DNA of 64,000 nucleotides, from NCBI RefSeq assembly GCF_030362855.1, contig NZ_JAUCBP010000001.1, positions 1 through 64,000 on the forward strand, read 5' to 3'. Source of the DNA: Neoalteromonas arenosi. GTDB taxonomy: Bacteria > Pseudomonadota > Gammaproteobacteria > Enterobacterales > Alteromonadaceae. Each line of letters begins with the position of its first letter. Within the stretch, counting starts at the first letter, position 1. Positions 56,032 to 63,891 of this stretch are shown here, one piece after another. The notes beneath the pieces were generated by a model. The model saw nothing but the letters and a program-made list of their open reading frames with translations, was not told where the DNA came from and made no database searches. The position numbers were made by a program, and so were the translations under genes.

Positions 56032-56076
56032 AAAGCGCGCTTAACAGCGATTTAGGTGCTTCCTCAATGCCCTGTA

Positions 56077-57069
56077 CTAATCCCCAGCAACAGCGACGCC
56101 GTGACGCTCCAACAATTTGTAAGTTTCATCGATTAAGCCTTGCATCCGCTCGCGTTCATCGCTAAACGAGGCTTTTATGTCGTCGCTAGCACATTCGTCC
56201 AGCCGCAAATATTCTGATATTAAATAACTGATCATTGGCGACATATCGTTGGCTTCTGTTCCATCGGTGCGCAATTCTGCAGTCATCCTCGATAGATATT
56301 TGGTAGTCGTATTAACCTGCTCTTGGTATTTAACCTCTGTAATTGAAAATACTTGACAGCTTGAATCCGTGCTAACTTGTGATTCAGCATCTTGATCATC
56401 AACCATCATCGCAATTATTTGCGTAATAGCTTCAAGGGTAGAGACATCTTCTACGTCTTTATAACCCGAAATCATCTCTTTCAGGTTGAATAAAATTGAA
56501 GTAGATACTGCAACCCAAAACAAAATAAACAATAACAACCCGATACTTAAAATACCGGTAAAGACTTTTAATAAAGACCCAATGCGAAGATGGCGCTTAA
56601 GTCGAGCTTGACTGTGACCTGTCATAATCGATGCAATTTCGATTTTTAGATCATTCATACCGCTTGCAGTATGCTCGTATTTTAATGTCGTCGACTGCTG
56701 GATTAACCGTGTAATAATATGATTGCGGTGCTCTTGGTGCTGATATGCATCGTCTAACGTTACAAAGATCAGTTTATCTTGGGGATTGTGAACCGAAAAA
56801 AATTCGACCTCTTTTGCTACCCAAGATGAAGCCAAAGACTTTTCGCTGACAATAACAATGAGATAGGTTGAGTTTGCCAATGCCAGATTTAATGAGTCAG
56901 CTAGATTTGCCGAAGTAGGCAACTCATCTGCGTCGCGAAAAATTGGAAACAAGCGCTTTTGGCTGTTACCAAACAGAGGCACTCGCATGTTCTCGAGCAC
57001 ATGATGCAGCTTATCGACGAGCTTTACATCGGCATGTGCATAACTGATAAATGCTTGATAAATAGCCAT
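56077..57069 (-). CDS. TIR-domain membrane protein with C-terminal extracytoplasmic region
   Basis: A 330-residue protein. Residues 1-150 are a canonical bacterial TIR domain: FISYAHAD, FRDADELPTSANLADSL and SSWVAKEVEFF, with Glu87 at the position of the catalytic Glu of TIR NADases. One transmembrane helix at 166-190 is followed by a 140-residue tail with just two Cys (in SSCQVF and DECASDD), which may form a disulfide outside the inner membrane. The gene follows the next entry by 15 bp; its AAAGGA site overlaps that gene's stop. Effector-like NAD cleavage on stress or phage infection is an inference. Confidence 0.75.
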   Translation of the reverse strand: MAIYQAFISYAHADVKLVDKLHHVLENMRVPLFGNSQKRLFPIFRDADELPTSANLADSLNLALANSTYLIVIVSEKSLASSWVAKEVEFFSVHNPQDKLIFVTLDDAYQHQEHRNHIITRLIQQSTTLKYEHTASGMNDLKIEIASIMTGHSQARLKRHLRIGSLLKVFTGILSIGLLLFILFWVAVSTSILFNLKEMISGYKDVEDVSTLEAITQIIAMMVDDQDAESQVSTDSSCQVFSITEVKYQEQVNTTTKYLSRMTAELRTDGTEANDMSPMISYLISEYLRLDECASDDIKASFSDERERMQGLIDETYKLLERHGVAVAGD

Positions 57070-57084
57070 CTTGTAACCATTCCT

Positions 57085-57732
57085 TTAGTTGCCCTGGATA
57101 CGAAATTGTTCGTAAAATTTATCCATTGAACTTGATGTGTCGCTCACGCACTGCAGAGTTGAAAGGCTAAGTACTATCAGCACGACTAGAATAACCGCGT
57201 TTTTTACTTTATTTTGACGTTGCGTTAATTCTCGATAAGGAACATCAAAGATAGCTGCCGTAAACTTCTTCACCGCGATACCGCGACTGTGTGCATCTGG
57301 TCCCGCCGCTACTGCAATCGGTTCAGACTTAATCTCAGTTGTGTTGCCCGCCGTATCATAATCAAGCAGCAGCGCTGCTGGAAAGTAGTCGTCAATCTTC
57401 TTTTTTTTGTCTTTCTGCTGCTCGTCGCCTACAACGCTCTGCAGGTCTTCACCTAACACCAATGCAAAGACATTCTTACTGCGCATCTTAAACTCAATGA
57501 GTAATCGATTAAGCGCGACATCGTTTACACTTGACGCCGAACAAATACACAACAGTAAACTGTCAGCTCGAATTAATGACAAGTCAGTAGCGTCTGTCAG
57601 ACGTTGAAAATCAACATCTTCAATGGCCAATTTAGTATTTAATGTTTCTGGGAGGGTCTGTTGATAATATGAACGCTGTATACTATTGACTTCGCTCAAA
57701 TCAAAATCATTGTAAAGTATCCAAACTACCAT
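57085..57732 (-). CDS. Divergent TIR-like protein with C-terminal membrane anchor
   Basis: A 215-residue protein with an N-terminal about 100-residue segment of TIR-like pattern (MVVWILYNDFDLSEVNS, DSLLLCICSASSVNDVALNRLL), but lacking the clear catalytic Glu and SxWxxxE motif of its neighbour. Before the membrane helix (about 178-194) is FDVPYRELTQRQNK, resembling the linker VPxxELxQRxx often found between TIR domains and membrane segments in bacteria. Only about 20 residues follow the helix. AAGGA lies ten bases before the ATG. A non-catalytic partner or sensor for the downstream TIR protein is inferred. Confidence 0.6.
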   Translation of the reverse strand: MVVWILYNDFDLSEVNSIQRSYYQQTLPETLNTKLAIEDVDFQRLTDATDLSLIRADSLLLCICSASSVNDVALNRLLIEFKMRSKNVFALVLGEDLQSVVGDEQQKDKKKKIDDYFPAALLLDYDTAGNTTEIKSEPIAVAAGPDAHSRGIAVKKFTAAIFDVPYRELTQRQNKVKNAVILVVLIVLSLSTLQCVSDTSSSMDKFYEQFRIQGN

Positions 57733-57757
57733 TGCGCCAATGTCCTTATCGGTGGTT

Positions 57758-57803
57758 AAACAGTGCCTGCCTAATGGTGATTAATCATAGACAGCCACTG
57801 TTT
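57758..57803. promoter_or_regulatory. Inverted repeats between aldehyde dehydrogenase and TIR operon
   Basis: AAACAGTG (57758-57765) and CACTGTTT (57796-57803) form an 8-bp inverted repeat with TGATTAATCA (57778-57787), a perfect 10-bp palindrome, in the middle. The 85-bp interval separates the aldehyde dehydrogenase from the TIR pair on the same strand, so it could be a terminator-like stem for the former (T-run short) or an operator for the latter. Confidence 0.4.
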
Positions 57804-57817
57804 TTTCGCAAGTTTTC

Positions 57818-61016: not shown

Positions 61017-61102
61017 TAAGTTCTGTTTTCCTGTACAAGCCCGTTTGACCGCTATACTTGTGTGTTAAGCTTAGACCAGATTTTTGTAAAGAGATCAGTA
61101 GT

Positions 61103-62020
61103 ATGCGTTTGTGCATGTTATTTCTGTCAATATTGCTCTGTAGTTGTCAGCCCAAAGACCGCCTTGAACCCGTTACTATTGTTATCGGCAGCTGGTACGG
61201 CTTTTATCCTTTCTATTATGCGATAGAGCATGGCATTGATCGGCAGGTCGGCATTCGACTCAAGATAGTTGAACCGAATAACATTGGAAACTTTAGACGC
61301 GGCTACATGCGCCAACAAGTCGATTTTGGTGCAACCTCGATGATTGAATTTACTAATGCGCATCGCATGAGCCAGATCGATATACGTCCTGTGATCTTTA
61401 CCGATTATTCCAACGGTGGCGACGTTATTGTTGCGACCCGCTCGATTCAGTCCTTGGCAGACCTAGAAGGTGCACGCATCGCAGTGCCTTCGCAAGGTAT
61501 CGCAGAATACATACTTTCACTGGTTTTTGATGATCCCGTGCCCAGTAATCATTTTGCCCAGTTCAAGATCCCGGAGGATGAGTGTGCAGATGCGTTTAAA
61601 GAGGATTTAATTGATGCATGTGTGACCTACCCGCCGATGTCGACATTTTTGCTAGAAAATCCAGATTTGCATCAGATTTACACTACCGCTGAGCACCCTC
61701 GTCGAGTGTTTGATGTCGTCTGGGCCAAACCACATGTCAGTGATGATCTTGCCGAGAAAATGCTAAAATTGTGGTTTGTTACTCTAGAGAAGGTTAAGGC
61801 TGACCCTATTAGTTTCTATCAATTTGTTGCCAAGATTGCCGATGTGCCTACTGCTGCTGTTTCAGAATCCATGCAGGGTATTGAGCTACTTGATGAGGGC
61901 AAGCACCGAGAGTTTGTCGAAGATTATGCCGACAAAGTAAAAGATATTGTCACCGCATGCCAAGTGGCTAAGAATCCTAACTGTGCGCAATACGGCGAAA
62001 TGTTTGAGGAACTCAATTAA
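61103..62020 (+). CDS. ABC-type substrate-binding lipoprotein (NMT1/THI5-like)
   Basis: A 305-residue lipoprotein (lipobox LLCSC, Cys15) with a type-2 solute-binding domain: VIGSWYGFYPFYYAIEHG and DFGATSMIEFTNAHR, as in NMT1/THI5 and taurine/nitrate binding proteins. The frame opens at 61058, but the ATG at 61103 has AGAGAT nearby and opens a proper lipoprotein signal. No permease or ATPase is next to it; instead a hybrid kinase follows with a 1-nt stop/start overlap, which implies a sensor role. Confidence 0.85.
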   Translation: MRLCMLFLSILLCSCQPKDRLEPVTIVIGSWYGFYPFYYAIEHGIDRQVGIRLKIVEPNNIGNFRRGYMRQQVDFGATSMIEFTNAHRMSQIDIRPVIFTDYSNGGDVIVATRSIQSLADLEGARIAVPSQGIAEYILSLVFDDPVPSNHFAQFKIPEDECADAFKEDLIDACVTYPPMSTFLLENPDLHQIYTTAEHPRRVFDVVWAKPHVSDDLAEKMLKLWFVTLEKVKADPISFYQFVAKIADVPTAAVSESMQGIELLDEGKHREFVEDYADKVKDIVTACQVAKNPNCAQYGEMFEELN

Positions 62021-63891
62021 TGCGTTTTGGTATAGCGCAAAAGCTGATCATTCCGACGACTTTGGTGTTTATTGTATTGAGCCTACTGGTCACTAATACC
62101 CTTCTGAACCTGTACCGGGAAGAACAGCTCGATACGACCAAACGACACGCGATTGACCTTGCCAGCCAAGCCGCCATGCAATTTGACTTTTCTTTAGGCG
62201 ATGACAGCTTAAAGAAAGTCGTCACGGGTATAGCCCTGAGCGATCATATTCTGCAAGTCGCAGTGGTTGATCCGAGTAACGACAATGTAATAGCTTCGAG
62301 TTTTTATCGTTATGCTGAGCAGTCTGTGGTTGATTTACCGGAGATAATGCAGTCGGTGTATTTTGCCAATCGAAACAGTGTTGTCCCAGTATTCACTGAT
62401 GTGATCGATAAGCAATATGCAATGGCTTATCCAGTAACGGTACTGGCTGCCAATAATACCGATACGCGCCCGCTCATACTGATCATGTACTTCGATACAC
62501 TGGTACTCGACCGCCAGTACGCGGAATACCAATGGCGATTCTCTATCGTTGCGATACTGTTTGTCAGTCTGCTTTTGGCTTTACTATACATTCTTGTGCG
62601 ACAAGTCATTAGACGACCGCTGGCGCGTTTTGAAAATTCTATCCACACCCAAACCGAAACCGGGCATTTAGGTGAAGTTGAGCTTGATACTGGCGACGAA
62701 CTTCAAGATATCGCGGATACCTTTAATCGATTTGTCCGAGCCGAGCAGGCTACCTTTAAAGCTCAACAACAAGCGCTGGTGGCTACCGAACAATTAGCAG
62801 CGAAGAAGACCCAATTTTTAGCCAACATGAGCCACGAGTTGCGCACACCGTTAAATGGTATCACTGGACTTGCGCAACTATGTAAGGACGAAACGGATGA
62901 GGAGAAGCGGCAAAAATACCTGAGCCAGCTACTAAAATCATCAGGTTTATTGATATCACTGGTCAACGACATACTCGATTTTTCCCGAATGAACGATGCT
63001 GAGTTGACTCTTTCACCCACCTGCGGCGCGTTGCGAGAGGTTATATCTGAAATCTACGACCTGACAAAAGTGGTCGCTGACCAGAAAGGGGTACTATTGG
63101 AGTATCAGATCGCCACTACCTGTTCTACTGGCTACCTCCTCGATCAAAAGCGCTTAAAGCAGGTGCTGTTAAATTTATTAAATAACGCCATTAAGTTTAC
63201 TGAACAGGGCAAAGTTACCCTTACCGTTGACTTTCAACAGGGACAATTGGTCTTCCTGGTTCAAGACACTGGCATCGGTATTTCAAAGCGTGACATCCAG
63301 CGCTTATTCGACCCGTTTGAACAAGCTGATAGCAGCATATCGCGCAAATACGGCGGCACGGGCTTAGGCCTCTCAATTTGCCAAAAAATTGTTGAGTCGA
63401 TGCAGGGCAAAATAACCGTATCATCAACACTGGGTCAGGGCAGTAAATTTAAAGTGAGTATTCCAGCTGAGGCTTGTATACCTTTGAATGACCCACCTAG
63501 TGCGCCGCATGTGACTGACGGCGCGAACAAGGGGCTAAAAATTTTGGTCGCCGAAGATAATGATATTAATGCACTGATTATCCAGGATATGTTGGCGTCG
63601 ATGGGCCACAAGGTTGTGGTGGTGGATAATGGTGAAAAAGCCGTAGTCGCATGTCGAGAGAAGCGCTTTGATGTTGTTTTAATGGATATTCAAATGCCAA
63701 TCATGGATGGCCTTAAAGCGACCCAAAATATTCGGGATCTAGGAGATACAACACCTATTGTTGGTTTAAGTGCCAACGTCTTTAAGGAAGATGAAGACGC
63801 TGCGTTGACAGCAGGAATGAATGATTACTTGCATAAACCAGTCGTCAAAGCGACCTTAGAAAAGTGCCTGTCTCAATTTAGTGCTCAGTGA
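62020..63891 (+). CDS. Hybrid sensor histidine kinase
   Basis: A 623-residue kinase: transmembrane helices at about 10-30 and 172-195 enclosing a periplasmic sensor region, HAMP-like linker, HisKA with H272 (NMSHELRTPLN), ATPase boxes NLLNNAIKFTE, DTGIGIS and GGTGLGLSI, and a C-terminal receiver with Asp556 in VVLMDIQMP. No HPt or output domain is attached; the phosphate presumably moves to a separate protein. It overlaps the solute-binding lipoprotein by 1 nt and most likely responds to its ligand. Confidence 0.93.
   Translation: MRFGIAQKLIIPTTLVFIVLSLLVTNTLLNLYREEQLDTTKRHAIDLASQAAMQFDFSLGDDSLKKVVTGIALSDHILQVAVVDPSNDNVIASSFYRYAEQSVVDLPEIMQSVYFANRNSVVPVFTDVIDKQYAMAYPVTVLAANNTDTRPLILIMYFDTLVLDRQYAEYQWRFSIVAILFVSLLLALLYILVRQVIRRPLARFENSIHTQTETGHLGEVELDTGDELQDIADTFNRFVRAEQATFKAQQQALVATEQLAAKKTQFLANMSHELRTPLNGITGLAQLCKDETDEEKRQKYLSQLLKSSGLLISLVNDILDFSRMNDAELTLSPTCGALREVISEIYDLTKVVADQKGVLLEYQIATTCSTGYLLDQKRLKQVLLNLLNNAIKFTEQGKVTLTVDFQQGQLVFLVQDTGIGISKRDIQRLFDPFEQADSSISRKYGGTGLGLSICQKIVESMQGKITVSSTLGQGSKFKVSIPAEACIPLNDPPSAPHVTDGANKGLKILVAEDNDINALIIQDMLASMGHKVVVVDNGEKAVVACREKRFDVVLMDIQMPIMDGLKATQNIRDLGDTTPIVGLSANVFKEDEDAALTAGMNDYLHKPVVKATLEKCLSQFSAQ

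Follow-up and report, generated by a model that had tools for sequence, protein, structure and literature searches.

TIR domains act as NADases on docking, and in homomeric assemblies the two surfaces that meet are hard to test apart. In TIR-APAZ/Ago, neighboring TIRs meet with the BB loop of one inserted between the DE and CD loops of the other. Mutations at this interface reduce or eliminate NAD+ consumption, and a composite active site has been proposed (PMC10474274). In TIR-STING, the other subunit of the dimer contributes D110 to complete the active site (PMC9402430). The two systems agree in that the BB loop of one TIR lies against tail loops of another and the neighbor completes the active site (PMC10474274, PMC9402430). 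A third precedent is the staphylococcal Thoeris system, in which ThsB1 and ThsB2, two TIR proteins from one operon, are both found in complex with a phage capsid protein, and in which changes to the catalytic site of ThsB2, not of ThsB1, disrupt immunity (PMC12578639). These data reveal that a two-TIR machine, in which one active complex needs the catalytic residues of only one partner, is already known (PMC12578639).

The locus we investigated lies in a window of 64,000 nucleotides, the whole stretch of DNA analyzed here, and consists of two adjoining minus-strand genes. Gene B (57085..57732, 215 aa) is upstream and is assigned as a tail-only pseudo-TIR with Leu at the catalytic position on the basis of its ORF, a purpose-built HMM and conserved-column counts. 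Gene A (56077..57069, 330 aa) is predicted to be a catalytic, head-only TIR with a membrane helix, based on its ORF, Pfam and the same counts. The stop of B and the start of A are separated by 15 bases (57070-57084), and AAAGGA (57081..57086, minus strand), the probable ribosome site of gene A read from the sequence, overlaps the TAA stop of B. When coordinates and strand were re-read, this layout agreed with the sequence-only reading that had drawn attention to the locus. Hydropathy gives one strongly hydrophobic stretch per protein: residues 170-188 of A (56506..56562, minus strand), taken as its membrane helix, and residues 179-197 of B (57142..57198, minus strand), a membrane stretch called from hydropathy only. 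The helix is followed by 142 residues in A versus about 18 in B; the part that follows in A (residues 189-330; 56080..56505, minus strand) is probably periplasmic and is predicted from a single-sequence model to form a helical bundle.

That A is a canonical TIR protein, as had been claimed, is supported by its match to Pfam TIR_2 (4e-12, 47.1 bits versus a cut-off of 28). It also matches Pfam ThsB_TIR (1.8e-9, 38.4 bits versus a cut-off of 21.2), the match spanning the TIR only; single-gene TIR-TPR proteins pass this model as well. The PADLOC matches, to PDC-S66 (3.8e-7), SAVED_TIR (2.7e-6) and ThsB (5.1e-6; 24.1 bits at best), are weak or confined to the TIR, and those in NCBIfam are far below cut-off. 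The meaning of PDC-S66 was not found in the main text of the PADLOC paper (PMC8565338). The Glu after strand C is Glu87 (codon at 56809..56811, minus strand), the predicted catalytic residue, which lies within WVAKEV (W83, V84, E87). Residues 38-56, KRLFPIFRDADELPTSANL (56902..56958, minus strand), align with the BB-loop region; this and the other structural names used for the TIR family of A and B are given by analogy. By eye, the head of A is complete and canonical, and its last helix is degenerate but present. In the single-sequence AlphaFold2 model of A, only the membrane helix and the helical end part are predicted with confidence (pLDDT about 90 across most of residues 241-322), and the model of B (pLDDT 42) is too poor to judge a TIR fold. 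Foldseek searches with the single-sequence models returned no match at E<=0.001; two low matches of A are TIRs (BcThsB, E 0.03), neither of them significant.

B has no match in Pfam, PADLOC or NCBIfam at E<=1. We describe it by reference to nine single-gene proteins (637-1156 aa), which were aligned as a parent family. They share one TIR, a conserved tail and a hydrophobic stretch, followed in those that were scanned by TPR or WD40 repeats, and the tail carries the motifs GEPNA, ECFP.AL, EPIAAD.R and K.IAG.LGV..L.QR. A 240-position HMM of these nine TIRs, built with B excluded, detects B with an E value of 8.8e-12 (for a small ORF set). Judged by this profile match, B is homologous to the TIR of the single-gene TIR-membrane helix-TPR/WD40 proteins. 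The earlier description of B as a divergent TIR-like protein that lacks the catalytic Glu and carries a C-terminal anchor is borne out by the Leu at the catalytic position and by the hydrophobic stretch near the C-terminus. However, ELTQRQ, which had been read as a linker, is not private to B: it terminates the last helix, which is conserved throughout the TIR family, and in the alignment it closes the retained tail of B, which runs from strand D to the last helix (residues 87-172; 57217..57474, minus strand). The single-gene proteins (e.g., L029:6674-8902, L074:8859-14138 and L025:11570-14443) resemble the pair in their homologous TIR, in the same head and tail motifs and in a membrane stretch after the TIR. 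They differ in that both halves and the Glu are found in one gene together with long TPR or WD40 parts. The window pair has no such part: neither of its proteins has a TPR or WD40 match in Pfam at E<=1.

A search for the two genes together, which the sequence-only reading had proposed and which would have refuted it had homologs never co-occurred, found A and B side by side in a second genome, from another genus of the same bacterial family (G128; pair L026), and again in the window's own genome (G000; pair L027). The two-gene membrane TIR module, with one canonical member and one without the catalytic Glu, is thus real and recurs, with three tandem pairs in two genomes. The side-by-side recurrence of A and B exceeds chance. 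Over the aligned parts, the G128 proteins are 33% (A) and 24% (B) identical to those of the window, and the gene order is the same. The L027 pair (L027:1461-7913, approximately G000:C7 789.5-795.9 kb) is much longer: A has 1097 aa and B 1048 aa, and each combines a hydrophobic stretch with a large C-terminal part in which no Pfam match passes the cut-off. By eye, these C-terminal parts resemble repeats or propellers. The divergent gene leads in the window and in G128 and follows in L027, whereas the intergenic spacing stays short (15, 4 and 12 bases in the window, G128 and L027, respectively); the genes thus stay adjacent while their order varies. B is an intact ORF in all three pairs, at 22-27% identity to window B, and its length and anchor are similar in the two mini pairs (window and G128). 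B of G128 has no 19-residue stretch with a hydropathy over 1.6, so its anchor is weaker. The QGN at the C-terminal end of B in both mini pairs was set aside as a conserved protein feature because in G128 its codons contain the AAGGA that precedes gene A. The count of exactly two cysteines in window A was correct (238 and 293, both C-terminal of the helix), but these cysteines are not conserved, A of G128 having one, and the idea of a disulfide was rejected.

The two members of each pair retain different parts of the family signature. In the HMM alignment of all three pairs, A covers the model from position 2 or 3 to 119-130, and B mainly from 75-78 onward. With a head/tail boundary that was chosen after the pattern was visible, 38 head and 26 tail columns are conserved in at least 80% of 51 non-identical single-gene members; one identical duplicate (52 reduced to 51), L038, L158 and L169, whose tail is divergent with the last helix present, were left out of these counts. 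The three A proteins keep 86/114 of the conserved head positions and 17/78 of the tail positions, whereas the three B proteins keep 34/114 and 51/78. With sites taken as independent, the pooled contrast has a Fisher p of 5.7e-10, and the individual pairs have p values of 0.013 (window), 3.8e-6 (G128) and 9.1e-4 (L027). The window pair thus shows the weakest contrast of the three, and its B is the most degenerate, with 13/26 conserved tail positions. None of 63 circular shifts reached the head/tail contrast, and column cut-offs of 70% and 90% agree. All 51 single-gene members keep both halves (a fraction of at least 0.79 of the head and at least 0.77 of the tail). Glu occupies the catalytic position in 51/51 single-gene members and in 3/3 A proteins, and Leu, Ala and Trp take its place in the three B proteins. 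Judged by these columns, A is the opposite half to B of one TIR family signature, which the sequence-only reading had missed.

A and B would both reside in the inner membrane with their TIR parts in the cytoplasm. A would supply the head (first strand, BB loop and catalytic Glu), and B, its own head lost, would supply the tail (CD loop, strand D, DE loop, strand E and last helix). A signal would be sensed either via the outer portion of A or through the membrane itself, and the BB loop of A would dock on the tail of B, so that one NAD-cleaving site is completed. NAD+ would then be consumed or converted to a cyclic ADP-ribose, and growth would stop; the most plausible occasion may be phage or envelope damage. 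In TIR-APAZ/Ago and TIR-STING, unlike in the arrangement proposed for the pair, the assembly is homomeric, with head and tail in the same protein, and, as those systems are described in the texts cited above, it is driven by Ago complexes or STING. That A keeps the BB-loop and Glu side and B the CD/DE-loop side suggests a head-to-tail membrane heteromer with one composite NAD site, derived from a divided TIR. Given the column counts and the analogy with the known assemblies, we regard this arrangement as quite possible, if slightly short of probable. A more specific version is put forward only tentatively: a TIR enzyme was split into a head-only catalytic protein and a tail-only pseudo-TIR with a common active site, and activation would end at a defined heteromer rather than in an open filament.

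A may also work alone, as its head is complete, its last helix is present and many TIR families have no EPIAAD-type tail. An alternative explanation, which we consider unlikely, is that A is a self-sufficient TIR NADase and that the dead TIR B caps assemblies of A, which would remain silent until a trigger removes B. Such an antitoxin-like role would agree with the loss of the Glu from B in 3/3 pairs and with the position of B as the first gene in two of the three, where antitoxins are often found, and the retained tail could block the BB loop as well as complete a site. However, A is without the family tail that a self-assembling enzyme would need, and B is the second gene in L027, where both proteins have large C-terminal parts. 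If the division of labor were instead Thoeris-like, A would be catalytic and B would bind the trigger and recognize or recruit, the tail being conserved as a trigger-binding surface rather than as part of an active site. ThsB1 provides a model for this, as it recognizes the phage capsid, recruits ThsB2 and activates it, with only the catalytic residues of ThsB2 being important (PMC12578639). Nevertheless, this explanation is quite improbable for the window pair: beyond its TIR and helix B has about 18 residues to recognize with, and no ThsA-like gene was found among the ten scanned neighbors. A STALD (ThsA) search of the genome also gave 0 matches, but its 14 controls were silent as well, and it carries no weight here. 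That B is a decaying second copy and the pairing a relic of tandem duplication is highly improbable, for although B is the fastest-evolving row (end branch 5.3) and broken TIR copies exist in the group (L038 and L077), it is intact in all three pairs and similar in length and anchor in the two mini pairs, and what it has lost is concentrated in the head, with the tail retained and the opposite half missing from A.

The window pair differs from Thoeris in its membrane anchors, in its divided halves and in that no ThsA was found among the ten neighbors. Thoeris is soluble and capsid-sensing with a ThsA effector, its ThsB1 keeps a putative catalytic Glu, and the sections of PMC12578639 on which we draw mention no membrane part. 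The statement that the pair is not a recognized type holds insofar as no Pfam, PADLOC or NCBIfam model covers it, but it was too strong in view of the precedent of a catalytic ThsB2 and a ThsB1 whose site is dispensable (PMC12578639). No report of a TIR with head and tail divided over two membrane proteins was found in the open literature searched. If the composite head-to-tail site is real, this natural pair would allow each surface to be mutated alone and would represent a minimal membrane-bound TIR machine. It would also provide a sequence rule for finding further pairs, with the Glu and head in one gene and an EPIAAD-type tail without Glu in the next; present models overlook such pairs, as illustrated by window B, which they do not match.

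A and B may go back to a single kind of TIR protein, its tasks now split over two genes. In the phylogeny, the A proteins of the window and G128 are sisters (100/99) and A of L027 is placed elsewhere, but the data do not reject a single clade of A proteins (p-AU 0.527). The three B rows, whose branches are very long, fall together on one side of a branch supported at 22/45. There may have been more than one origin of the split, with the mini pairs and the long pair arising separately.

Within the bacterial family, the A profile (E<=1e-18) matches 23/395 genomes at 32 places, all of which were inspected, five of them on only about 3.4 kb of sequence each. Three are the A genes of the pairs (in two genomes), 27 hold both halves within a frame, one is interrupted (L038) and one is head-only without a partner (L158). 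Six further places in G000 (3.74 Mb, 15 contigs) are matched by A. In the genus of G128, the B profile matches 3/59 genomes, one of which, G128, has the pair. Order-wide, B matches 13/394 genomes, and class-wide A matches 8/369 and B 7/369; the matches listed, pairs aside, are both-half frames or broken single-gene copies, and as these wider searches scored 5 to 7 of up to 17 candidates per genome, weaker members may be missed. A named-organism contig scan with A gave three weak TIR matches and no pair. Among plasmids, B had no match and A matched six records, none of which covers more than 32% of A; phage records gave none for A, and viral contigs gave none with the A and B profiles. This reveals no phage- or plasmid-borne copy in those collections at those sensitivities.

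A stop-to-stop scan of 55 loci found 63 TIR-like frames, of which only ten are partial and the rest hold both halves. Six of the partial frames belong to the pairs, one is L158, and the remaining three derive from two single-gene copies that are broken (L038 and L077). L158 is head-only, belongs to another TIR type and has no B nearby, which argues against a strict pairing rule for head-only TIRs. L038:3714-5840 (G000:C6) is a copy in the window's own genome that is interrupted by TAA. A 259-residue frame at L077:6254-7030 (G345) was considered as a B gene and rejected, as it is a broken single-gene copy (model 28-239) in which the BB loop and Glu motif are present. At L165:6538-7713 (G894), a 391-aa single-gene TIR with head and tail is a possible compact relative of the pair. 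In four genomes, a protein starting with GITGHR or GVTGHR is encoded near a single-gene TIR-TPR protein (L028:2622-4391, L029:9959-11731, L030:3792-5516 and L077:7857-9665). These proteins appear SLOG-like by eye, and the one in L029 has hints of DNA_processg_A and SLATT_3 below the Pfam cut-off; together with the TIR-TPR protein they possibly form a separate TIR-linked system. In two sister species, a TIR-TPR gene lies beside an HTH plus metallopeptidase-like gene, recognized by eye (L035:342-4092 in G094 and L039:2374-6845 in G000), and the proteins are near-identical as far as compared, which suggests a recent cassette transfer.

The pair is missing from three of three sister species, which have no TIR between the flanking genes. 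There, 39-88 bases separate the aldehyde dehydrogenase gene from a gene recognized by eye as VTT/DedA-like; in the window, the stretch between the flanking genes, which the pair fills, is 56032..57817. The GC content of the pair is 41.5%, compared with a mean of 46.7% (sd 1.6) in 312 overlapping windows of the same length, only one of which is lower. Sporadic presence and low GC would fit a transferred defense gene; the defense or stress system suggested by the sequence-only reading is a candidate role only. The ten neighboring proteins that were scanned belong to metabolic, regulatory and transport families, and the locus is thus not an evident defense island. Further along the window (61058-63891), a gene for an NMT1/THI5-like binding protein is directly followed by one for a histidine kinase that carries a receiver domain (this kinase was recognized by eye), an apparent sensor operon.
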